Source of the DNA: Falsiroseomonas bella
Lineage (GTDB): Bacteria > Pseudomonadota > Alphaproteobacteria > Acetobacterales > Acetobacteraceae
Direction of reading: 5' to 3'
Length of the DNA: 64,000 bases
Assembly: GCF_003173615.1 (NCBI RefSeq)
Contig: NZ_QGNA01000005.1
Location: forward strand, 248,001 to 312,000
The translations under genes were made by a program, and so were the position numbers. The notes below the pieces were generated by a model. The model saw only the letters and a list, made by a program, of their open reading frames with translations, was not told the origin of the DNA and made no database searches. Shown here one piece after another: positions 52,199 through 63,706 of the stretch. Each line of letters begins with the position of its first letter. Positions within the stretch are counted from its first letter, which is position 1.

Positions 52199-53881
52199 CT
52201 ATCCCCCGCCGCCGGGCTCCTTGGCCGCGCGTCCCGGGGCAAGTCGGGTGGCCAGCAGTTCGCCGCGGCGTTCCAGCAGCGGATGCGCCACCGCCGCCAG
52301 ATGCGCGCCGACCCGCCGAAGGTCGCGGATCGCATCCAGCACGAGCCCCGGCGTGGCGCCCGGCTCGCCCAGCGGCAGCGGCGCGGCCTTCGCTGCTCGA
52401 CGCGCGGCGGCGCTCTCCGTGCCGCGCAGCATCTCCTTCGCCTGCACCAGGCGGCGCGCGGCCTCCGCATCCGATTCGGTGAAGACGGCGACGGCGAGGC
52501 GCAACTCCTCGCGCAGCGCCGCATGCAGCGCCGCGATGTCCCTTCGGTCCGCCTCCGCCAGCGTCACGCCCCGGCGCGCACGCTTGGCGGCATGCCGCGC
52601 GACGTCGCGGCTCAGCACATCGGCGGCATGTTCCAGCGCGATGGCAAAGGACTGGATGGCCGCGATGCGCTCGCGATCCGACTCCGTCAGCAGATCGCCC
52701 GGCATGCCGGCAAGATACGCGAGCACGGCGCGGTGCAGCCGGTCCACCACGTCGTCCATCGTGGCCAGCGCCTTGGCAGCATCGCGCGCATCCTCGGCGA
52801 AGGCGCGGGTGGAGGCGTCCAGCATCCGCTCCAGCACATCGGCGATGCGCAGCACCTCGCGCCGCGCATTCGCCATCGCCACGGCCGGCATCGCCGCCGC
52901 GGCAGGATCGAGGTAGCGCGGCGCCGCCTCGTCCAGCTCGGGACGCTCGGGCAAGAGCTTCGTCAGCGCCCAGGCCAGCGGGCGCAGCAGCGGCAGGGCG
53001 AGCAGGCTCGTCGCCACGTTGAAGGCGAGATGCGCGGTGGCGACCAGGCGCAACGGCGTCGGCACCAGCGAGGCGAGCCAGGCGCTGACCTCGGGCAGGA
53101 AGGCCAGCACCAGCGCGCAGCCCAGCACGCGGTTGACGAGGTTGCCGAGCGGCAGCCGCAGCCGCGCCCGATCACCCGGCCGGCCGCCGCCCTGCAGCAG
53201 CGGGTTCAGCGCGCTGCCCAGGTTGGCGCCGAGCACCATCGCCACCGCGGCGTCCGGCAGCAGCACGCCGCCGCCGGCGAGCGTCGCCACGAACAGCACC
53301 GCCGCGATGGAGGAATGCGCCGCCCAGGCGATCACGGCCGCCAGCACCAGGTTCGGCAGCGGCTGGTCCGCCATCGCATGCAGCACCTGCGCCAGCGCCG
53401 GCGAGGCCTGCACGGGCGCGAGCGTCTCCACCATCAGATGCAGCGCGAGCAGCATCAGCCCGAGCCCGATGGCAACGCGGCCGAGGTCGCGCGACTGCGC
53501 GCGCCGCCCCTTCCGAAACGCGATGACGCCGAGCAGGATCAGCAGCGGCGAGAGCCAGCCCGCATCGAAGGACAGCACCTGCACGATCATCGCCGTGCCG
53601 ATATTGGCGCCGAGCATCGCCGCCAGCGCCGGCACCAGCGCAACGGCGCCGGCCGAGGCGAAGCCCGCGATCATCAGCGCGGTCGCGGTGCTGCTCTGCA
53701 GCGCCGCGGTCACGCCGAGCCCGGCGAGCAGCGCGCGCCAGGGCGTGCCGAGCGCGGTGCCGAGCAGCGCCTGCAGCCGCCCGCCGAAGGCGCGCTCCAC
53801 GCCGGACTGCACCATGTGCAGCCCCCAGAGCAGCAGCGCGGCCTCGCCCGCGAGCTGGACCAGCAGGCGCAGCTCGGTCAT
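52199..53881 (-). CDS. Na/Pi cotransporter family protein with PhoU-like domain
   Basis: A 560-residue protein of the NptA/YjbB family. The N-terminal membrane domain contains the two inverted QSS-type repeats, QSSTATAL (62-69) and a diverged HSSIAAVL (189-196), plus GANIGT (91-96) and a later GANLGS. The C-terminal 230 residues are helical and PhoU-like. E. coli YjbB of this family exports phosphate; animal NptA/SLC34 proteins import it. It is 17 bases after iolE in the same operon, so it is probably made along with inositol catabolic enzymes. Its role as a phosphate-balancing exporter here is inferred. Confidence 0.9.
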   Translation of the reverse strand: MTELRLLVQLAGEAALLLWGLHMVQSGVERAFGGRLQALLGTALGTPWRALLAGLGVTAALQSSTATALMIAGFASAGAVALVPALAAMLGANIGTAMIVQVLSFDAGWLSPLLILLGVIAFRKGRRAQSRDLGRVAIGLGLMLLALHLMVETLAPVQASPALAQVLHAMADQPLPNLVLAAVIAWAAHSSIAAVLFVATLAGGGVLLPDAAVAMVLGANLGSALNPLLQGGGRPGDRARLRLPLGNLVNRVLGCALVLAFLPEVSAWLASLVPTPLRLVATAHLAFNVATSLLALPLLRPLAWALTKLLPERPELDEAAPRYLDPAAAAMPAVAMANARREVLRIADVLERMLDASTRAFAEDARDAAKALATMDDVVDRLHRAVLAYLAGMPGDLLTESDRERIAAIQSFAIALEHAADVLSRDVARHAAKRARRGVTLAEADRRDIAALHAALREELRLAVAVFTESDAEAARRLVQAKEMLRGTESAAARRAAKAAPLPLGEPGATPGLVLDAIRDLRRVGAHLAAVAHPLLERRGELLATRLAPGRAAKEPGGGG

Positions 53882-53898
53882 CGGCGGGCCGCCTCCTC

Positions 53899-54786
53899 TC
53901 AGCCGAAGGCTGAACGCGCGAAGCGGGCCAGGTTGTCATGGCCCATCCGCGCATAGGTCAGCGGATGCGCCTTGGCCGGATCCTGCTCGGCCTCCACCAC
54001 CAGCCAGCCGGCATAGCCCGCGGCGGCGAGCGGCTTCAGCACGGCGGGATAATCCACGCAGCCATCGCCGGGAACCGTGAAGACGCCTTCGAGCACGGCG
54101 GCCAGGAAGGGCAGGTCGCGCGCCTTCACGTCGCGCATCACCGCCGGCCGGATATCCTTGCAGTGCACATGCACCACGCGCGCCGCGTGGCGCTCCGCCG
54201 CTGCTACCGGATCGCCGCCGGCGAAGGTGAGGTGGCCTGTGTCCAGCAGCAGCCCGACGTCCGGCCCGGTGGTCGCCATCAGCCGGTCCACATCCGCCTG
54301 GCTCTCGATCACCGTCCCCATGTGGTGGTGATAGGCGAGATGCAGCCCGCGCGCCTTCAGCCGCCTGCCGAACTTTTCGATTCGTGGTGCCAGGAGATCC
54401 CAGTCGGCGTCCGACAGGACCGGACGCTGCGACAGCGGCGTCGCGCGCGCGCCATGGATCGCGCGGGCAACCTCGGCATGCACCATCACCGTGCAGCCCA
54501 GCGCGGTCAGCAGCGCGATGTGCGGCTCGGCCTCCGCCATCTCCGCATCCACGTCGCGCTCCAGCAGGCGCGAGCCGTACCAGCCGGAAACCAGCGCCAG
54601 CCCGTGCCGCTGCAGGATCGGCCCGAGCTGCGACGCCACGCGCGGGAACTTGTTGCCGAGCTCGAAGCCCTCGAAGCCCGCCTGCTTCCCTTCCGCCAGG
54701 CAGGTCTCGAGCGGCGTCTCCGCGCCGAGCTCCGGCATGTCGTCATTGGTCCAGGTCAGCGGATTGATGCCGAGGCGGATGGCCAT
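53899..54786 (-). CDS. iolE: myo-inosose-2 dehydratase
   Basis: A 295-residue metal-dependent TIM-barrel enzyme that dehydrates scyllo-inosose (2-keto-myo-inositol), the second step of inositol catabolism. It begins with GINPLTWTNDDMPELG, standard for IolE, and has the acidic and His metal-site region HHHMGTVIES and LLLDTGHLTFAGGDP. ATG at 54786 gives the normal N-terminus. It follows iolD by five bases and precedes the Na/Pi cotransporter by 17. Confidence 0.94.
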   Translation of the reverse strand: MAIRLGINPLTWTNDDMPELGAETPLETCLAEGKQAGFEGFELGNKFPRVASQLGPILQRHGLALVSGWYGSRLLERDVDAEMAEAEPHIALLTALGCTVMVHAEVARAIHGARATPLSQRPVLSDADWDLLAPRIEKFGRRLKARGLHLAYHHHMGTVIESQADVDRLMATTGPDVGLLLDTGHLTFAGGDPVAAAERHAARVVHVHCKDIRPAVMRDVKARDLPFLAAVLEGVFTVPGDGCVDYPAVLKPLAAAGYAGWLVVEAEQDPAKAHPLTYARMGHDNLARFARSAFG

Positions 54787-54791
54787 TGGGG

Positions 54792-56630
54792 TTACGCTCC
54801 TGCGGCCTGGCGCTTGCGGTTGGTCTCGTAGTCGCGGCGCGCGGCCTTCTGCGCCGGCGTCGCGGGCGCCGCGGTCACCGGCACCTCCCACCAGGCGCCG
54901 CCTTCCGCGGTGCCGGTCTGCGGGTCCGTGTCGATGACGATCACCTGCGTGCGCTTTGCGGCGAAGGCTTTTGGCAGCGCGGCTTCCAGCTCCGCGATGT
55001 CAGCCACCTTGCGCGCCTGCGCGCCGAGCGCCGTCGCATGGGCGGCGAAATCCACACGCGGTGCTTCATCCGGCAGAAGGTTGCGAAAGGGCTCGCCGCC
55101 GGTGCCGCGCTGCAGGCGGTTGATGCAGCCGAAGCCGCGATTGTCCAGCACGACGATCGTCAGCTTGGCGCCGAGCGCGACGGAGGTCGCGATCTCGCTG
55201 TTCATCATCAGGTAGCTGCCGTCGCCGACCATCACCACCACCTCGCGCTGCGGCGCCGCAAGCTTGGCGCCGAGCCCGCCGGCGATCTCGTAGCCCATGC
55301 AGGAATAGCCGTATTCCAGGTGGTAGCTTGCGGCATCCGTCGCGCGCCACAGCTTGTGCAGTTCGCCCGGCAGGCCACCCGCGGCGCAGACCACGATGCC
55401 CTGCTTCGGCATGGCGCGGTTGACCGCGCCCAGCACCTGGGCGTCCGTCGGCAGGTCGTTCGCGCCGCGCTTCGGCGCCGCCGTCACGCGCGCCACCGTG
55501 CGGTGCCAGCGCGCGGTCGCCGCCGCCGCCTTCTCCTGCCACGGTCGCGGCACCTGCCACCCGCCGAGCACGGCGGACAGCGCCGCCAGCCCGCGCCCGG
55601 CATCGGCGACCAGCGGCTGCGCGCCGTGCTTCAGCGCATCGAACGCGGCGACGTTCAGCGCGACAAGCTTCGCGCGGCCGAACAGCGCGCGCGATCCCGT
55701 GGTGAAATCCTGCAACCGCGTGCCCACCGCCAGCACCAGGTCGGCCTGCGCCGCCAGGGCATTCGCCGCGGCGCTGCCGGTCACGCCGATGGCGCCGAGA
55801 TTGGCAGGCGCATCCCAGGCCAGGCTGCCCTTGCCGGCCTGGGTCTCCGCCACCGGCACGCCGTGGGAGCGTGCGAACTCGGCAAGCGTTGCTTCCGCGC
55901 AAGCGTATTTGACGCCGCCGCCCGCGATCAGGACGGGCCGCTTCGCCGCGCGCAGCGCCTCCGCCGCCGCGCGCAGCTCCGCCGCGTCCGGCTCCGGCCC
56001 GCGCGGGCGCCAGACGCGCTTGCGGAAGAAGTCGCTCGGCCAGTCCATCGCCTCGGTCTGCACGTCCTGCGGAAAGGCGAGCGTAACCGGTCCGCATTCC
56101 GCCGGATCGGTCAGCACGCGCATCGCGGCCGGCAGCGCTGCCAGCAGCTGCTCCGCGCGCATGATGCGGTCGAAGTAGCGGGAGACCGGACGGAAGCAGT
56201 CATTGGCCGAGACCGTCGCGTCGCCGAAATCCTCGACCTGCTGCAGCACCGGATCGGGCCGGCGGCTGGCAAAGACGTCGCCGGGCAGGAACAGCACCGG
56301 CAGGCGGTTCACATGCGCCACCGCCGCCGCCGTCACCATGTTCGTGGCACCCGGCCCGATCGAGGTGGTGCAGGCCATCATGCGCCGGCGCGCATGGGTC
56401 TTGGCGAAGGCGATGGCGGCATGTGCCATCGCCTGCTCGTTATGCGCGCGAAAGGTGGGCAACACGCGGCGATGCGCATGCAGCGCCGGCCCCAGCCCGG
56501 CCACGTTGCCATGGCCGAAGATCGCCCAGACACCGCCGAAGATGGGCAGGGTGCGGCCGCCGATCTCGGCCTGCTGCGCCGCCAGGAAGCGTATCGTGGC
56601 TTCGGCCGCGGTCAGGCGTAGACTGGCCAT
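54792..56630 (-). CDS. iolD: 3D-(3,5/4)-trihydroxycyclohexane-1,2-dione hydrolase
   Basis: A 612-residue TPP-dependent enzyme opening the inositol-derived ring (third step after IolG and IolE). The TPP glutamate is E65, the metal/TPP motif GDG is at 469-471 with N477, and the acetolactate-synthase-like three-domain layout is complete. The ATG at 56630 lies five bases after GGAGG, which decides it over a GTG at 56642. First gene of iolD-iolE-Na/Pi cotransporter; no iolB, iolC, iolA or iolJ is in the window. Confidence 0.94.
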   Translation of the reverse strand: MASLRLTAAEATIRFLAAQQAEIGGRTLPIFGGVWAIFGHGNVAGLGPALHAHRRVLPTFRAHNEQAMAHAAIAFAKTHARRRMMACTTSIGPGATNMVTAAAVAHVNRLPVLFLPGDVFASRRPDPVLQQVEDFGDATVSANDCFRPVSRYFDRIMRAEQLLAALPAAMRVLTDPAECGPVTLAFPQDVQTEAMDWPSDFFRKRVWRPRGPEPDAAELRAAAEALRAAKRPVLIAGGGVKYACAEATLAEFARSHGVPVAETQAGKGSLAWDAPANLGAIGVTGSAAANALAAQADLVLAVGTRLQDFTTGSRALFGRAKLVALNVAAFDALKHGAQPLVADAGRGLAALSAVLGGWQVPRPWQEKAAAATARWHRTVARVTAAPKRGANDLPTDAQVLGAVNRAMPKQGIVVCAAGGLPGELHKLWRATDAASYHLEYGYSCMGYEIAGGLGAKLAAPQREVVVMVGDGSYLMMNSEIATSVALGAKLTIVVLDNRGFGCINRLQRGTGGEPFRNLLPDEAPRVDFAAHATALGAQARKVADIAELEAALPKAFAAKRTQVIVIDTDPQTGTAEGGAWWEVPVTAAPATPAQKAARRDYETNRKRQAAGA

Positions 56631-56642
56631 GTTCTCCTCCAC

Positions 56643-56658
56643 CCCGGATTGCTCCGGG
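56643..56658 (-). promoter_or_regulatory. small leader hairpin just before the iolD ribosome-binding site
   Basis: CCCGGA, TTGC, TCCGGG: a 6-bp stem with a tetraloop that in the iolD mRNA ends right before the GGAGG of the ribosome-binding site. It might affect translation or mRNA stability; evidence is structural only. Confidence 0.35.
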
Positions 56659-56668
56659 CCGACCTTGT

Positions 56669-56686
56669 GTTACAGTTCGATGACAC
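56669..56686 (-). promoter_or_regulatory. Pho-box-like direct repeat, iolD/iolG control region
   Basis: On the minus strand it reads GTGTCAT, four bases, CTGTAAC, i.e. two 7-base units at 11-base spacing, matching the PhoB consensus CTGTCAT-N4-CTGTCAT at 6/7 and 5/7. It sits about 40 bases upstream of the iolD ATG and 47 upstream of the iolG ATG. PhoB control is plausible but unproven. Confidence 0.45.
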
Positions 56687-56732
56687 TGACTGCAAGCCGG
56701 GCGCGGCAAGCAGCGCGCCCACGGAAACCACC

Positions 56733-57722
56733 ATGATCCACTTCGCACAGTTCGGCGCCGGCCGCATCGGCGCCATCCACGCCGCCAACCTGGCGGCGAG
56801 CGGCGACGCGCGGCTCAAGCATGTCGTGGACGTGCATGCGCCCGCCGCGCAGGCGCTGGCCGCGAAGCACGGCGCCGCCGTCAGCGACACCGCGACCGCG
56901 CTGGCCGACCCGGAGGTGCGCGCCGTCATCATCGCCTCCTCCACCGACACCCACGCCGATCTCGTCATCGCCGCCGCGCGCGCCGGCAAGGCGATCTTCT
57001 GCGAGAAACCCATCGATCTCTCGCTGGCGCGCGTGGATGCCTGCCTGGCGGAGGTGCGCAAGGCCGGCGTGCCGATGCTCGTCGGCTTCAATCGCCGCTT
57101 CGATCCATCCTTCGCCGAGCTGCATCGCCGAATCGGCGCCGGCGCCATCGGCGCGGTGGAGCAGGTGATCATCACCAGCCGCGACCCCGGCCCGCCGCCG
57201 GTCTCCTACGTCAAGGTCTCGGGCGGCCTGTTCCGCGACATGACGATCCATGACTTCGACATGGCGCGCTGGATGCTGGGCGAGGAGCCGATCGAGGTCT
57301 TCGCCCACGGCGCCAACCTGGTGGACCCCGCCATCGGCGCGGCCGGCGACATCGACAGCGCGATGGTGCTGCTGAAGACCGCCTCCGGCCGCATGGCGCA
57401 CATCAACAACAGCCGTCGCGCCAGCTACGGCTACGACCAGCGCGTGGAGGTGTTCGGCAGCGCCGGCCGCCTCATCGCGGGCAACCGCACGCCGACCACG
57501 GTGGAACTGGCGGATGCCAACGCCGTCAGCGCCGACAAGCCGATGCACTTCTTCCTGGAGCGCTACGCCGAGGCCTACCGGATCGAGCTGCAGGCCTTCC
57601 TCGATGCGCTGACGAAGGGCGCGCCGATGCCGGTGGGCGCGGAGGATGGGCGGCAGGCCCTGGTGCTGGCCGATGCCGCCTTCGAGTCGCTGCGCACCGG
57701 GCGTCCGGTGAGGGTCGCCTGA
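56733..57722 (+). CDS. iolG: inositol 2-dehydrogenase
   Basis: A 329-residue Gfo/Idh/MocA dehydrogenase that oxidises myo-inositol (possibly also scyllo- or chiro-inositol) to scyllo-inosose with NAD. The Rossmann loop GAGRIG is at 8-13, the family EKP motif at 91-93, and the catalytic H173 lies in DMTIHDFDMARW. Length is typical of IolG. It opens the plus-strand operon, divergent from iolD over a 102-bp spacer, and overlaps the next gene by one base. Confidence 0.93.
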   Translation: MIHFAQFGAGRIGAIHAANLAASGDARLKHVVDVHAPAAQALAAKHGAAVSDTATALADPEVRAVIIASSTDTHADLVIAAARAGKAIFCEKPIDLSLARVDACLAEVRKAGVPMLVGFNRRFDPSFAELHRRIGAGAIGAVEQVIITSRDPGPPPVSYVKVSGGLFRDMTIHDFDMARWMLGEEPIEVFAHGANLVDPAIGAAGDIDSAMVLLKTASGRMAHINNSRRASYGYDQRVEVFGSAGRLIAGNRTPTTVELADANAVSADKPMHFFLERYAEAYRIELQAFLDALTKGAPMPVGAEDGRQALVLADAAFESLRTGRPVRVA

Positions 57723-58513
57723 TGTCCATGCTGCCGCAGGTGCGGCTGGATGGCCGCGTGGTGCTGGTGACCGGCGGCACCTCCGGCATCGGCGAAGGCT
57801 GCGCGCTTGCCGCGGCCGAGGCCGGCGCGGCGGCGGTCTGCATCACCGGCCGCGACGCAACGCGGGGCGCGGCGGTGGTCGCAAAGCTGCAGACGCTCGG
57901 CACGCGCGCGCATTTCGTCGCCGCCGACCTCGCGGATGCGGAGGCAACCTCCGGCATCGTCGCGCAGGCCGAAGCCGCGCTCGGCATCGTGGACGGGCTG
58001 GTGAACGCAGCGGGGCTGACCGATCGCGGCACCATCCTCGACACCTCCGCCGCGCTCTGGGACCGGCTCTTCGCGGTGAACGCGCGCGCGCCCTTCCTGC
58101 TGACCCAGGCGATGGCGCGGCGCCTGAAAGAAGCGGGCAAGCCCGGCGCGGTGGTGAACGTCATCACCATGTCGAGCCATGGCGGCCAGCCTTTCCTCAC
58201 CGCCTATTCCGCCTCCAAGGGCGCGCTGGCGACGCTGACGAAGAACACGGCGCTGGGCCTGCGCCCGCTGCGCATCCGCGTGAACGGCATCAACATGGGC
58301 TGGGCCGACACGCCGGGCGAGCATGTGATCCAGCAGCGCGACGGCAACCCGCAGGACTGGCTGGAGCGCGCCGAACCGTCCCAGCCCTTCGGGCGACTGC
58401 TGAAGCCGCGCGACGTGGCCGGGCTCGCCACCTACCTGCTGTCCGACGCATCCGAGATGATGACCGGCGCGCTGATCGACTTCGACCAGAACGTGATGGG
58501 TGCCTATACGTGA
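57722..58513 (+). CDS. SDR-family oxidoreductase
   Basis: A 263-residue classical short-chain dehydrogenase. NAD(P) loop TGGTSGIGEG is at 17-26, the NAAG motif near 95-98, and the catalytic S151/S152, Y162 and K166 are present. It is tightly coupled to iolG (TGATG) and to the phosphatase downstream (TGATG). In this setting it could act on an inositol stereoisomer or inosose, but SDR sequences do not reveal substrate. Confidence 0.88.
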   Translation: MSMLPQVRLDGRVVLVTGGTSGIGEGCALAAAEAGAAAVCITGRDATRGAAVVAKLQTLGTRAHFVAADLADAEATSGIVAQAEAALGIVDGLVNAAGLTDRGTILDTSAALWDRLFAVNARAPFLLTQAMARRLKEAGKPGAVVNVITMSSHGGQPFLTAYSASKGALATLTKNTALGLRPLRIRVNGINMGWADTPGEHVIQQRDGNPQDWLERAEPSQPFGRLLKPRDVAGLATYLLSDASEMMTGALIDFDQNVMGAYT

Positions 58514-59292
58514 TGCACGACGACCTCGCCCGCCGCCGCGACATCGCCGGCGGCATCGCACGCGACGCCGCCGCCCTCGCCGCGCGCATGCGCGCGAAGG
58601 GCATGGGTGCAACGACGATGAAGGGCGCGCAGGACTTCCTGACGGAAGCCGATGGCGCGACGGAGCACTTCATCCGCGAGCAGCTCGCACGCCACTTCCC
58701 CGGCGAGCCGATCCTCGGCGAGGAAGGCGGCGGCGAAGCGTCCGAATCCGGCCCGCTCTGGATCCTCGACCCGATCGACGGCACCGCGAATTTCGCGCGC
58801 GACGGCCATCGCTGGTGCGTCTCCATCGGCCTCGCCCGGGACGGGCGCGCGGTGATGGGCGCCGTGGCCCGCCACGAGCCCGCCGAGCTATACGTCGCCG
58901 CGGCAGGCCTGGGCGCGACCCTGAATGGCACCCCGATCCGCGCCGCCGCCACCACGGACATGGCGCGCGCCATCATCGAAATCGGCTGGTCGCTGCGCCG
59001 CCCGGCGGAAGCCTTCGTCGCACTCGCCGGGCGCGTGATGGCGGACGGCGGCGGCGTGCGCTCCCAGGGCTCCGGCACGCTCGGCCTTGTGGAGACCGCC
59101 TGCGGCCGGCTCGACGCCTATCTCGAACTGCACATCAATGCCTGGGACGCGGCGGCGGCGCTCGCCATCGCGCGCGAGGCCGGCTGCTGGACCAACGCCT
59201 TCGACAGCGGCGACTGGCTCGCCGCGGGCAACCCGATCTGCTTCGCCGCACCCGCCCTCGGTCCGCGACTTGCAGCGCTGATGGAGGCTTGA
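58513..59292 (+). CDS. inositol monophosphatase family protein
   Basis: A 259-residue Mg-dependent phosphatase of the IMPase/SuhB superfamily. Metal residues are present: E70 in GEEGGG, the DPIDGT motif with D86 and D89 (86-91), and D212 in the C-terminal WDAAAAL motif. Members cleave inositol 1-phosphate, histidinol phosphate, fructose bisphosphate or 3'-phosphoadenosine phosphate. Position between inositol dehydrogenase genes and an AfuA-like importer makes inositol phosphate the best guess; HisN-type activity cannot be ruled out from sequence. The ATG at 58513 is preferred over a GTG three bases earlier. Confidence 0.88.
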   Translation: MHDDLARRRDIAGGIARDAAALAARMRAKGMGATTMKGAQDFLTEADGATEHFIREQLARHFPGEPILGEEGGGEASESGPLWILDPIDGTANFARDGHRWCVSIGLARDGRAVMGAVARHEPAELYVAAAGLGATLNGTPIRAAATTDMARAIIEIGWSLRRPAEAFVALAGRVMADGGGVRSQGSGTLGLVETACGRLDAYLELHINAWDAAAALAIAREAGCWTNAFDSGDWLAAGNPICFAAPALGPRLAALMEA

Positions 59293-59317
59293 GCTTCCCG
59301 GCGCGCCGGCAGAGAAT

Positions 59318-59335
59318 ATGACAGTTTCGAGGCAG
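59318..59335 (-). promoter_or_regulatory. Pho-box-like direct repeat ahead of the ABC importer
   Basis: On the minus strand it reads CTGCCTC, four bases, CTGTCAT: the second unit matches the PhoB half-site perfectly, the first at 4/7, with correct 11-base spacing. It lies 45 bases before the receptor ATG at 59381 but points away from it, which weakens the case for PhoB action. Confidence 0.35.
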
Positions 59336-59380
59336 TCCGTGGCGCCGGCCGAAGCCGTGCGCGATCAGGGAGGAAGAACC

Positions 59381-60415
59381 ATGTCCGCCACACGCCGCCT
59401 GTTCGGCGCCGCCATCGCCGGCGCCTTCGGCCTGCTCGCCGCCGGCACGGCCAGCGCGCAGGGCAGCCTCACCGTCTACTGCTCGGTGCAGGAGGAATGG
59501 TGCCGTCCGATGATGGCCGCCTTCGAGCGCGCCACCGGCATCAGCGTCGCCATGACGCGCCGCAGCTCCGGCGAGACGCTGACCCAGATCCGCGCCGAGG
59601 CCCAGAACCCGCGCGGCGATGTCTGGTGGGGCGGCACCGGCGATCCGCACATGCAGGCCGCGCAGGAGAACCTGACGCAGGAATACCGCTCCCCGATGCT
59701 CGCGCAGCTGCAGCCCTGGGCCGTTCGCCAGGCGGAGCAGACCGGCTTCCGCACCGTCGGCATCTATGCCGGCGCGCTCGGCTATTCCTACAACGCGCCG
59801 GAGCTGCAGCGCCGGCGCATCACCGCGCCGCGCTGCTGGGCCGACCTGGCGAAGCCCGAGTTCCGCGGCGAGGTCCAGGTGGCCGATCCCAACACCTCCG
59901 GCACCGCCTACACCATGCTCGCAACCCTGGTGCAGATCATGGGCGAGGACCCGGCCTTCACCTACCTCCGCGCCCTGCACCGCAACGTCAATCAGTACAC
60001 CCGCTCCGGCGCCGCGCCGGCGCGCGCCGCCGCCACCGGCGAGACGCTGGTCGGCATCACCTTCCTGCACGACGCCGTGGCGCAGAAGGTCAGCGGCGCG
60101 CCGCTGGAACTCGTCGGCCCCTGCGAGGGCACGGGCTACGAGATCGGCTCCATGTCCATCGTCCGCGGCGCGCGGAACATGGACAACGCCCGCCGCTTCT
60201 ACGACTGGGCGCTGAGCGCCGAGGCGCAGGCGATCGGTGCCGAGGCCAAGGCCTACCAGCTGCCGTCCAACCGCAGCGCCCCGATCCCGCCCCAGGCCCC
60301 GCGCTTCGAGAACGTGCCCCTGATCGACTACGACTTCGCCCGCTGGGGCAACGCGCAGGAGCGCACGCGCCTGATCGACCGCTGGCAGCGCGAGGTGCGT
60401 GCCGGCGCACGCTGA
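59381..60415 (+). CDS. ABC transporter periplasmic receptor, AfuA-like (sugar-phosphate type)
   Basis: A 344-residue receptor with a signal peptide (about 1-27, ASA-Q). The fold is that of ferric-binding proteins (TVYCSVQEEW at 31-40, GDVWWGGTGDPH at 79-90, NTSGTAYT at 171-178). However, the Fe3+ ligands of FbpA (His, Glu, tandem Tyr) are replaced, and a His-Asp pair occurs at 230-231 where FbpA has tyrosines. AfuA of Actinobacillus and Citrobacter, same family, binds hexose phosphates. AGGGAGGAAG before the ATG at 59381 supports the start. A phosphorylated inositol is the contextual guess for the ligand. Confidence 0.85.
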   Translation: MSATRRLFGAAIAGAFGLLAAGTASAQGSLTVYCSVQEEWCRPMMAAFERATGISVAMTRRSSGETLTQIRAEAQNPRGDVWWGGTGDPHMQAAQENLTQEYRSPMLAQLQPWAVRQAEQTGFRTVGIYAGALGYSYNAPELQRRRITAPRCWADLAKPEFRGEVQVADPNTSGTAYTMLATLVQIMGEDPAFTYLRALHRNVNQYTRSGAAPARAAATGETLVGITFLHDAVAQKVSGAPLELVGPCEGTGYEIGSMSIVRGARNMDNARRFYDWALSAEAQAIGAEAKAYQLPSNRSAPIPPQAPRFENVPLIDYDFARWGNAQERTRLIDRWQREVRAGAR

Positions 60416-60448
60416 CGCGTATCGCCTGAGCCGCGCGGCGACCTCGCC

Positions 60449-62656
60449 TTGGGTGCCCTGACGCTTGGCCGCGCGGCGCTGCTCTGCGCCGCGCTCGGCA
60501 TGCTGCTGCTGCCGTGGCACGGGCTGGAGGGCGGCCCGGCGGAGCTCGCCGCCTGGCCGGGCGGCACCGCCGCGCCGCTCGTCGCGCTGCTGCTGTCCGG
60601 CGCGCGCTGGTGGCTCTGGCCGGTCGCGCTGCTGCTCGTGATCACCGCGCCGCCGCTGCTGCGCGGGCGGGCGCCTGGCGGCCTGCTGGTCGCGACGGGT
60701 GCGGGCATCATCCTCTGGACCCTCGCCATGGGCGAGGCGATCGGGCTGCGCGGGCTCGACTGGCACTGGCTCGCGCCGCTGCTCGGCGCGCCGCCGCCGC
60801 AGCCCTCGCTCGGCTGGGGCGCGCTGTTCGTGCTGGTCGGCGCGACGGGCCTGTTCGCCTCCGGCCTTGCGGCGCGCGGCGCCTTCGGCGCGGACGCCTT
60901 CGTCGCCTTCCTGGTCGCGGGCAGCGCATTCCTGCTGCTGCTCTTCGTCTTCGGGCCGCTCTTCACCATCCTGAGCGCCGCGGTTTACGAGGGCGATCGC
61001 TTCGCCCCCGGCGCGCTGGTCGCGCGCGTCACCGCCCCGGAGGCCTGGAGCCTCGCCTGCCTCGCCACCCATGAGGGCTGTGGCGTGGTGTGGAACACGC
61101 TGCTGCTGGCGACGCTCACGGCCGTGCTCTCCACCATGATCGGCCTGTTCTTCGCGCTGCTGGCGGTGCGCGGCGGCGTGCGCGCGGCGCCGCTGTTCCG
61201 CGCCATGACCATCCTGCCGCTGATCACGCCGCCCTTCGTCGTGGCGATGGCGCTGATCGTGCTGTTCGGCCGCACCGGCATCGTCACCACCTTCATGTGG
61301 GACTGGTTCGACATCCCCCGCAGCCGCTGGATCTACGGCCTTCCCGGCGTGCTGCTCGCGCAGGTGCTGGCGCAGGCGCCGATCGCCTTTCTGCTTCTGG
61401 ACGGCGCGCTGCGCGCCATATCGCCGAGCCTCGAGGAAGCCTCCGCCACCATGGGTGCGCGGCGCTTCACCATCTTCCGCACCGTCACCTGGCCGTTGCT
61501 GAAGCCGGCGCTGGCCGCGGCCTTCCTGCTCGGCTTCGTCGAATCGCTCGCGGATTTCGGCAACCCGCTGGTGCTCGGCGGCGATTTCGACGTGCTGTCC
61601 ACGCGCATCTTCTTCGCCATCGCCGGCGCCCGCCACGATCCCGGCCGCGCCGCCGCGCTTGCGCTGCTGCTGCTGGCGCTCACCTTCGGCGCCTTCGCGC
61701 TGCAGGCGCTCTGGCTCGGCCGCCGGCGCTACACGACGGTCACGGGGAAGGGCGATTCCGGCATCCCGGCGCCGCTGCCGGCCGGCCTCAAGCTCACCTG
61801 CGGTCTCGTCGTCTGGCCCTGGATGCTCTTCACCGCCGCGGTCTACGGCGTGATCCTGGTCGGCGGCTTCGTGCACGACATCGGCCGCGGCGACATGAGC
61901 TTCACCTGGCGCCACATCCTGACCGCCTTCGAGGTGGAATGGCGCGACGGCTTCGCGCTGCGCGGCTCCGCCTGGGACAGCCTGCTGACGACCATCGAGG
62001 TCGCCGCCATCGCCGCGCCGATCACCGCCTTCCTCGGCATCCTGCTCGCCTGGCTCATCGCGCGACAGGATTTCCGCGGACGGCGCACGCTGGAATTCAT
62101 GACCATGCTGTCCTTCGCCATCCCGGGCACCGTGGTCGGCGTCTCCTACGTGATGGCGTTCAACGTGCCGCCGATCGAGCTGACGGGCACGGCGCTGATC
62201 CTCATCCTCTGCTTCGTCTTCCGCAACCTGCCGGTGGGCGTGCGCGGAGGGCTGGCCGCGCTGGCCCAGATAGACCGCTCGCTCGACGAGGCCAGCGCCA
62301 CGATGGGCGCCGGCGCGGTGGACACGCTGCGCCGCGTCGTGCTGCCGCTGATGCGGCCCGCCATCATCACCGCCCTCGCCTTCAGCTTCGTCCATGCGAT
62401 GACGGCGGTTTCGGCGGTGATCTTCCTCGTCTCGGCGCGGCACAACCTGGCCACGGTCTACATCGTCGGCCGCGTGGAGGCGGGCGAGATGGCGCTCGCC
62501 ATCGCCTATTCCACCGTCCTCATCTTCATCATGCTCGCCGTGGTGCTCGGCATCGAGAAGGGGGTGGGCCGCGCGCGCCTCGGTCGCCGCGCGGCGCCCG
62601 CCTCACCCGGCCTGCGCAACGCCCCCGCCGCCGCGCCGGTCCGGGCCGGAGCCTAG
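60449..62656 (+). CDS. ABC transporter permease, two fused FbpB-type domains
   Basis: A 735-residue membrane protein made of two permease modules in one chain, as in FbpB/AfuB. Each half carries an EAA coupling loop: EEASATMGARRFTIFRTVTW (about 330-350) and DEASATMGAGAVDTLRRVVL (about 613-632). About 60 extra hydrophobic residues at the N-terminus are longer than usual. No ATG or GTG lies in frame before the first helix, so a TTG start at 60449 is likely; a later ATG would remove 17 residues. It lies 33 bases after the receptor gene. Confidence 0.88.
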   Translation: MGALTLGRAALLCAALGMLLLPWHGLEGGPAELAAWPGGTAAPLVALLLSGARWWLWPVALLLVITAPPLLRGRAPGGLLVATGAGIILWTLAMGEAIGLRGLDWHWLAPLLGAPPPQPSLGWGALFVLVGATGLFASGLAARGAFGADAFVAFLVAGSAFLLLLFVFGPLFTILSAAVYEGDRFAPGALVARVTAPEAWSLACLATHEGCGVVWNTLLLATLTAVLSTMIGLFFALLAVRGGVRAAPLFRAMTILPLITPPFVVAMALIVLFGRTGIVTTFMWDWFDIPRSRWIYGLPGVLLAQVLAQAPIAFLLLDGALRAISPSLEEASATMGARRFTIFRTVTWPLLKPALAAAFLLGFVESLADFGNPLVLGGDFDVLSTRIFFAIAGARHDPGRAAALALLLLALTFGAFALQALWLGRRRYTTVTGKGDSGIPAPLPAGLKLTCGLVVWPWMLFTAAVYGVILVGGFVHDIGRGDMSFTWRHILTAFEVEWRDGFALRGSAWDSLLTTIEVAAIAAPITAFLGILLAWLIARQDFRGRRTLEFMTMLSFAIPGTVVGVSYVMAFNVPPIELTGTALILILCFVFRNLPVGVRGGLAALAQIDRSLDEASATMGAGAVDTLRRVVLPLMRPAIITALAFSFVHAMTAVSAVIFLVSARHNLATVYIVGRVEAGEMALAIAYSTVLIFIMLAVVLGIEKGVGRARLGRRAAPASPGLRNAPAAAPVRAGA

Positions 62657-62665
62657 ACGCCAGCG

Positions 62666-63706
62666 ATGACCGACGCCGCCATCACCTTCGACCGCGTGAC
62701 CAAGGCCTTCGGCACGGTGCGCGCGGTGGACGAGGTCTCCTTCGACCTGCCGCGGGGCGCGCTGGTGACGCTGCTCGGCCCGTCCGGCTGCGGCAAGACA
62801 ACCACGCTCCGCCTCGTCGCCGGGCTCGAACTGCCGACAGAGGGGCGCATCACCATCGAGGGCCGCGACGTCACGCGGCTCGCCGCGGCCGAACGGCGCA
62901 TCGCGATGGTGTTCCAGTCCTATGCGCTGTTCCCGCACATGAACGTGCTGGAGAACGTCGCCTATGGCCTCGTCGTCAACGGCGCGCGCAAGGCGGCGGC
63001 CGAAACGGATGCGCTCGCCATGCTGAAGACGCTGGGGCTGGAGGGCCTCGGCCAGCGCCTGCCGTCCGAGCTTTCGGGCGGCCAGCAGCAGCGCGTCGCG
63101 GTGGCCCGCGCCCTGGTGCTGCGGCCGCAGGTGCTGCTGTTCGACGAGCCGCTGTCGAACCTCGATGCCCGGCTGCGCCGCCGCGTGCGGGAGGACATCC
63201 GCGACCTGCAGAAGCGCCTCGGCCTCTCGGTGGTCTATGTCACCCATGACCAGCAGGAAGCGCTGGCCGTCTCCGACCTGGTCTGCGTGATGCGTGCCGG
63301 GAAGATCGCGCAGATGGGCACGCCGAACGAGCTCTACGAGGACCCGGCCGACTCCTTCATCGCCGACTTCATGGGCGAGGCGAATGTGCTGGACGGCGAG
63401 GTGCTCGGCCCCGACCGCATCGCGCTCGGCGGCGTCGCACTCGCCACGCGCATGCGGGCGCACCCCGCCGGCCCGGCGCAGCTCGCGGTGCGCCCGGAAT
63501 CCATCACGCTGCTGGCCGAGGGCGAGGGCCTGCCCGGCCGCATCCAGCGCGCTGCCTTCCTCGGCCAGACCCGCGAATACGAGGTCGAGACGGCGGTCGG
63601 CACGCTCTTCGTCGTGGCCCCCGCCGCCGCCCCGGCCTTCGCCGGCGGGGAGGCGGTGCGCTGCCGGATGGAGCGCGTGATCCCGCTGCGCCCGCCGCGC
63701 GGCTGA
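62666..63706 (+). CDS. ABC transporter ATP-binding protein (FbpC/AfuC-like)
   Basis: A 346-residue ATPase of the CUT1/FbpC type. Walker A GPSGCGKTT is at 38-46, Q-loop VFQSYA (82-87), ABC signature LSGGQ (136-140), Walker B LLFDE (157-161), H-loop in VTHDQQEA. The C-terminal 100 residues form the TOBE regulatory domain. It starts nine bases after the permease. As last gene of the operon it completes the importer; no other ATPase is needed. Confidence 0.94.
   Translation: MTDAAITFDRVTKAFGTVRAVDEVSFDLPRGALVTLLGPSGCGKTTTLRLVAGLELPTEGRITIEGRDVTRLAAAERRIAMVFQSYALFPHMNVLENVAYGLVVNGARKAAAETDALAMLKTLGLEGLGQRLPSELSGGQQQRVAVARALVLRPQVLLFDEPLSNLDARLRRRVREDIRDLQKRLGLSVVYVTHDQQEALAVSDLVCVMRAGKIAQMGTPNELYEDPADSFIADFMGEANVLDGEVLGPDRIALGGVALATRMRAHPAGPAQLAVRPESITLLAEGEGLPGRIQRAAFLGQTREYEVETAVGTLFVVAPAAAPAFAGGEAVRCRMERVIPLRPPRG

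Follow-up and report, generated by a model that had tools for sequence, protein, structure and literature searches.

Uptake of sugar phosphates through a periplasmic receptor has been described for AfuABC of Actinobacillus pleuropneumoniae. According to the available part of that description, AfuA takes monophosphates and does not bind glucose, fructose, phosphate or fructose-1,6-bisphosphate (PMC4546632). The ring of its ligand is held by residues H205, D206 and E229 and the phosphate by S37 and T150, mutants at H205, D206 or E229 have lost binding, and the H205/D206/E229 motif is the authors' own definition of AfuA homologues (PMC4546632). On the side of inositol, the published operator of an alphaproteobacterial inositol module is GGAA-N6-TTCC (PMC2597717), and a different transporter, of the HlyB type, has been speculated to carry inositol phosphates (PMC2597717). 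In the accessible text of a further paper, afuA (as an iron transporter) and iol genes are mentioned separately (PMC11065229). Within the open-licence PMC literature, subscription papers being outside this coverage, we found no described bacterial inositol-phosphate ABC importer. Here we analyze a stretch of 64,000 nucleotides from Falsiroseomonas bella (contig NZ_QGNA01000005.1, positions 248,001 to 312,000; hereafter the window), in which positions 52199 to 63706 hold genes for inositol catabolism, an inositol monophosphatase-family phosphatase (IMPase) and an AfuABC-like importer.

This locus is most likely an uncommon arrangement of already known parts, serving inositol-monophosphate uptake and catabolism under phosphate control. 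In full, the reading that we consider probable, from the gene families, the contact residues, a recurring linkage and a PHO-like site, is that an inositol monophosphate is imported under PhoB control and dephosphorylated in the cytoplasm, after which its ring is oxidised; the identity of the ligand is what we infer. Uptake of the inositol monophosphate would run through the AfuA-like receptor together with AfuBC, phosphate would be released in the cytoplasm by the IMPase-family enzyme, and the freed inositol would be oxidised by IolG and dehydrated by IolE before its ring is opened by IolD. Phosphate starvation would raise expression via the PHO-box-like site between the operons, so that the system would supply phosphorus as well as carbon. 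The nine genes are intact open frames with no internal stops, in the order described earlier:

52199..53881, minus strand: sodium/phosphate (Na/Pi) cotransporter family protein with a PhoU domain, accessory (TIGR00704, 212.8 bits, cut-off 210.1; PF02690; PF01895)
53899..54786, minus strand: iolE, myo-inosose-2 dehydratase (TIGR04379, 411.7 bits, cut-off 290; preferred start ATG 54786)
54792..56630, minus strand: iolD, 3D-trihydroxycyclohexane-1,2-dione acylhydrolase (TIGR04377, 915.2 bits, cut-off 715)
56631..56732, no strand: divergent control region of 102 bp, aligned with ten congeners and L053
56669..56686, minus strand: PHO-box-like site GTGTCATCGAACTGTAAC, oriented to iolD (top score with the pstS-derived matrix)
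56733..57722, plus strand: iolG, inositol 2-dehydrogenase (TIGR04380, 451.8 bits, cut-off 355; nearest solved chain 4hkt)
57722..58513, plus strand: SDR oxidoreductase (NF004847, 349.6 bits, cut-off 240; nearest solved chain 4nim)
58510..59292, plus strand: IMPase (PF00459, 172.7 bits, cut-off 27)
59381..60415, plus strand: AfuA-like periplasmic receptor with signal peptide (preferred start ATG 59381; solved relatives and contact residues)
60449..62656, plus strand: AfuB-like two-domain permease, start codon uncertain (PF00528 twice; TIGR03262, 246.9 bits, under the cut-off of 593)
62666..63706, plus strand: AfuC-like ATPase (PF00005 and TOBE_2)

The two divergent gene rows reported in an earlier note on this DNA, iolD-iolE-Na/Pi and iolG-SDR-IMPase-AfuABC around one control region, are confirmed, the gap between iolD and iolG being exactly 102 bp. 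The genes of each row are closely packed (iolG-SDR -1, SDR-IMPase -4, receptor-permease 33, permease-ATPase 9 and iolE-Na/Pi 17 bp), and the IMPase gene sits 5' of the importer genes at a distance of 85 bp, or 88 bp if the preferred ATG at 59381 is used. By inspection of its sequence the IMPase has no signal peptide, which supports the proposed dephosphorylation as a putatively cytoplasmic step. For an RpiR-like regulator (c27) the label comes from reading alone, with no NCBIfam match at 1e-30.

The nearest solved chains to the receptor are 8x1a, AfuA (4r72-4r75, with glucose-6-phosphate) and P5PA (6wce, with pyridoxal-5'-phosphate). Among named records its nearest relatives, 79-90% identical, come from Roseomonas and Neoroseomonas. 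All five AfuA residues (H205, D206, E229, S37 and T150, in AfuA numbering) are present, including the triad that marks AfuABC-type sugar-phosphate importers. In a comparison of 99 receptor rows, 27 from iol-linked loci and 72 others, H205, D206, E229, S148 and T150 are found together in 27/27 linked rows; in the non-linked rows the counts are 64/72, 65/72, 70/72, 72/72 and 72/72, respectively. At position S37 the linked rows have either Ser (18 rows) or Ala (9 rows), and AfuA Ser39 is replaced by Glu in the window receptor and in 99/99 rows. A phosphorylated ring-shaped ligand is thus well supported as the predicted substrate class, in line with what had been proposed for this receptor from the sequence alone.

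Linkage of the receptor to iol genes was followed at three scales. A close receptor is present in 11 of 14 congeners, and in ten of the 14 iolE-iolD diverges from iolG-SDR-IMPase-AfuA; AfuBC is visible in nine of these ten loci, the contig of G005 ending within AfuA. An order-wide census, which is a less biased count than the locus set described below, covered 130 genomes, of which 36 have iolD and 17 have a receptor match with an E-value no higher than 1e-90, with 41 receptor matches in all. Close receptors (81% identity or more) make up 12 of the 41, and 11 of these 12 lie within 3 kb of iolD; of the more distant homologues none (0/29) is near iolD. Of the 36 genomes with iolD, 23 lack a receptor at this level and two have unlinked ones only. 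Finally, genome contigs were scanned more widely with 12 aligned receptors as the query, 11 of them from iol-linked loci (L051 being the exception). This yielded at least 575 confirmed loci, and the counts given here refer to the best 80, those with names. A strict test (at least 45% identity over at least 40% cover) finds iol linkage in 24 of the 80, and 17 of the 24 lie outside the Roseomonas group, in Hyphomicrobiales, Bosea, Beijerinckiaceae, Burkholderiales and others; four of the seven in-group linked loci (L092, L094, L095 and L096) are the same contigs as in the congener set. By a loose test 52 loci have an IMPase relative, 26 any of iolG, iolD or iolE, 21 both and eight a Na/Pi gene. 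Bosea L132, L150 and L154 share the row SDR-iolG-IMPase-AfuABC-Na/Pi, whereas Microvirga and others have IMPase-AfuABC alone, without iol genes. A quick tree built from 100 receptors requires 13 changes of iol linkage (uncertain rows left out); iol rows against IMPase-only rows, as in the group table, take 10, of which seven are forced by starred branches, and none of 500 shuffles is as low. As far as the sequences tell, iol linkage is recurrent, with clustering on the receptor tree. The co-occurrence of AfuA, iolG and IMPase that the earlier note had proposed to look for is found in other genomes, and the retention in ten of 14 congeners together with the iol linkage of the 17 outside loci exceeds what chance would give. 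Several phosphorylated substrates are probably handled by the IMPase-AfuABC module, and the inositol reading fits its iol-linked branch.

Further receptor loci were seen alongside. At L010:11124-17582 (G000:C12) three tandem AfuA-like receptors, about 58, 48 and 56% identical to that of the window, stand before one AfuB/AfuC pair and adjoin another ABC system, without iol linkage. Nine of the 14 congeners have four receptor matches, and G014 has three. Downstream of the locus, L009:16081-19462 holds PEP-synthase-like and HAD phosphatase-like genes (labels from reading).

The 102-bp control region points to phosphate control. Promoters of pstS in the genus carry a repeat of the form TGTCATCGAAGCTTCATCGAACTGCAATCG, and a matrix was made of the first 18 positions of 13 sites (13 of the 14 pstS promoters fit a hand-written pattern; that of G005 did not), which is not fully blind, as the likeness of the iolD-iolG site was spotted before the matrix was built. 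With it this site ranks first of 127,966 window positions (15.0 bits, the next 10.4), first in nine of 11 congeneric loci, and second and third in the other two; a pooled half-site version places it first in 10 of 11. Column-permuted matrices rank the control region first in 5 of 1000 cases, and of 20,000 shuffled versions of the region a fraction of 0.0004 scores as high. Across the aligned control regions the PHO-like block is kept and the remainder varies, the second spacer of the site being conserved in few relatives. A PHO box consists of a pair of 11-nt direct repeats, each with seven conserved positions; the site fits this pattern, with two 7-nt repeats at a spacing of 4 that match the pstS matrix. 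The matrix replaced a consensus search of the genome that had been loosened to fit the window site and was no independent test; across 5.94 Mb that consensus matched exactly at two places (the window site and the start of speE) and missed the genome's own pstS promoter. For the wider loci a generic PHO matrix was written by hand from the general consensus. In the 150 bp ahead of IMPase or AfuA its best box is the first in the locus in 18/71 cases and among the top three in 31/71, compared with 14/837 and 36/837 upstream of other genes and at most 10/71 and 16/71 for 12 scrambled motifs; a version with 350-bp windows gives 37/124 against 60/1340 random windows. A link of the locus to phosphate control through the PHO-like site is supported, and PhoB would be the protein that binds there. 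As a side observation, the lone AfuA-like receptor genes of L134 and L137 are preceded, at a distance of about 52 bp, by a PHO box of textbook-like form, CTGTCATTAAACTGTCAC.

Inositol control appears in relatives. Five of 37 loci examined have the GGAA-N6-TTCC operator no more than 400 bp ahead of one of their genes: 73-83 bp before the SDR of SDR-iolG-IMPase-AfuABC in L145, L150 and L154 (Bosea group), 48 bp before iolG in L159, and in a G+C-rich form before iolD in L132. In L145, L150, L154 and L159 the operons that follow it contain AfuABC or lie next to it. The 102-bp control region of the window does not have the operator. The position of GGAA-N6-TTCC before the AfuABC operon ties AfuABC to inositol regulation in the Bosea relatives, independently of linkage alone; judged from these motifs, the gene set has two independent regulatory links, to phosphate and to inositol.

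Several observations weigh against phosphate-controlled use of inositol monophosphate. Since the contact residues are kept in most non-linked homologues too, they do not single out inositol, and at the level of sequence they do not separate inositol phosphate from hexose phosphate. The IMPase meets the family model PF00459 and falls under the equivalog cut-offs for inositol-1-monophosphatase (NF008027, 111.7 bits, curated cut-off 332) and HisN; its family acts on many phosphomonoesters. As the wider query was built from iol-linked receptors and only the best 80 of at least 575 loci were counted, the linkage of 24/80 is biased upward; by the loose test, 31 of the same 80 have the IMPase without iol genes, and in L131 IMPase-AfuABC stands beside zwf (glucose-6-phosphate dehydrogenase) and edd (phosphogluconate dehydratase), which suits hexose phosphates. 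The eleventh congener, G014, shows IMPase-AfuA on a 6.5-kb contig with no iolG or SDR in 4.4 kb upstream, and G154 has a close receptor orthologue and no iolD match in its genome. The Na/Pi gene, to which the earlier note had given the role of phosphate disposal, occurs in three of 11 congeneric loci, window included; an essential part for it is not supported, and the gene is ruled out as a core component. As to regulation, the full 22-position (22-bp) matrix places the site first in only four of 11 loci, the site is absent in the close relatives L093 and L097 and degenerate in L091, it is oriented towards iolD and away from the importer, and it may overlap an ordinary promoter, a possible sigma-70 promoter lying within the conserved block (CTTGYG-N17-TAAC, minus strand). 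A complete ring pathway is not supported either. IolB (TIGR04378) and the KduI/IolB fold (PF04962) have no match in any of 14 genus members, with controls matching, and for IolC (TIGR04382) sugar kinases match in 14/14 with none over the cut-off (best in the window's genome 163.8 of 300 bits); these 14 include some without the locus.

Among the alternatives, an ordinary AfuABC importing glucose-6-phosphate or fructose-6-phosphate, with the IMPase as a general sugar phosphatase and the iol genes unrelated by substrate, accommodates the fully kept contact residues, the 31 loci without iol genes and the neighbours in L131. We nevertheless regard it as unlikely, since close orthologues lie beside iolD in all but one case whereas more distant homologues of the same order never do, and since three loci of the Bosea group have the inositol operator in front of their AfuABC operon. 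A hexose-phosphate version of the module is suggested elsewhere, in L131:543-14000 and L143, where IMPase-AfuABC stands by zwf, edd, an SMP-30-like gene and a ribose-type ABC importer; L131 also has a fructokinase-like gene (SMP-30-like and fructokinase-like are labels from reading alone).

Less likely again is another phosphorylated inositol, such as glycerophosphoinositol, an inositol bisphosphate or a scyllo- or chiro-inositol phosphate, with the SDR acting on the other stereoisomer. Different inositol isomers require different dehydrogenases, and an SDR at 50% identity or more recurs in many iol-linked loci, which would suit such a ligand; a diesterase-type gene is not among the nine genes of the locus, and the reported failure of AfuA to bind fructose-1,6-bisphosphate speaks against bisphosphates (PMC4546632, available part). 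A non-phosphorylated ligand (free inositol, another polyol or iron) is very improbable: the superfamily includes iron and polyamine receptors and iol linkage would suit free inositol, but the phosphate-side S148 and T150 are kept in 99/99 receptor rows, the closest studied receptors take phosphorylated ligands, with AfuA described as rejecting glucose (PMC4546632), and a phosphatase gene lies within the operon.

Two other assignments were considered for the importer. An iron receptor is ruled out by the residues and the nearest solved relatives, and a phosphonate importer by all three subunits falling below the NCBIfam equivalog cut-offs of the 2-aminoethylphosphonate importer (PhnS2, 209.3 of 392.75 bits; PhnT2, 354.8 of 457.7; PhnU2, 246.9 of 593.25). 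AfuA-like receptors frequently carry iron- or phosphonate-binding annotations, and their substrate class may therefore be under-recorded.

Returning to inositol monophosphate, the overall proposal of the earlier note, import and use of a phosphorylated inositol, is largely borne out by residues, linkage and regulation; the specific ligand keeps its conditional standing, and the parts on phytate and Na/Pi are weakened. Phytate is unlikely as the imported form, given that AfuA is reported to take monophosphates and not fructose-1,6-bisphosphate (PMC4546632) and that the window's genome has no match for a beta-propeller phytase, other phytase classes not having been searched. Ring oxidation stands as far as iolG, iolE and iolD are present; a complete ring pathway does not, and without IolB in the genus the IolD product must take another way or a non-homologous isomerase must exist. 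The SDR is not supported as a substitute for IolB, because it is also found in loci holding a bifunctional iolC (L132) or iolB (L098). A published survey defines an inositol cluster by at least three of iolB, iolC, iolD and iolE within 10 kb (PMC9430895). By this definition the present locus, with iolD and iolE only and no iolB match or over-cut-off iolC in its genome, is not a cluster, and the rule would miss loci of this kind. We tentatively suggest, as a possible extension, that AfuABC was retuned, together with iol genes, into a dedicated inositol-monophosphate importer in several lineages of alpha- and betaproteobacteria. PhoB would control this importer in one lineage and IolR in another, and here it would feed a shortened route which leaves the standard pathway after IolD, IolB being missing.

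Inositol phosphates are a major pool of organic phosphorus in soil and plants, and their use is usually described as dephosphorylation outside the cell followed by import of free inositol. Phytate in particular is abundant (PMC9430895). If the reading is true, taking up the ester intact would deny competitors its phosphorus as well as its carbon and would be an unusual bacterial route to abundant plant and soil inositol phosphates, steered by phosphate hunger.

Compared with known systems, the locus shares with AfuABC of A. pleuropneumoniae the receptor fold family, the ring and phosphate contact residues and the receptor-permease-ATPase order; in contrast to what is described there, its operon adds IMPase, SDR and iol genes, and the receptor has Glu for AfuA Ser39 (PMC4546632). 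P5PA, also related to AfuA, binds another phosphorylated ring compound (PMC8427247) and so shows that the AfuA-type pocket is open to retuning; in the alignment P5PA is without equivalents of D206 and E229, both kept in the window receptor, and the accessible text of its description does not mention iol genes (PMC8427247). The IbpA-IatA-IatP/IolR module has the IolG, IolE and IolD steps in common with the locus and its operator motif in common with the Bosea-group loci (PMC2597717). As far as it is described, that module imports free inositol, whereas the window has AfuABC and a phosphatase, a PHO-like site in place of GGAA-N6-TTCC, and a genus without IolB or an over-cut-off IolC. Like Pho-regulon importers of phosphate esters, e.g., Ugp, the locus has a PhoB-type site before a predicted organic-phosphate importer (PMC4415409, available part); unlike these, it is linked to the enzymes of the inositol ring.

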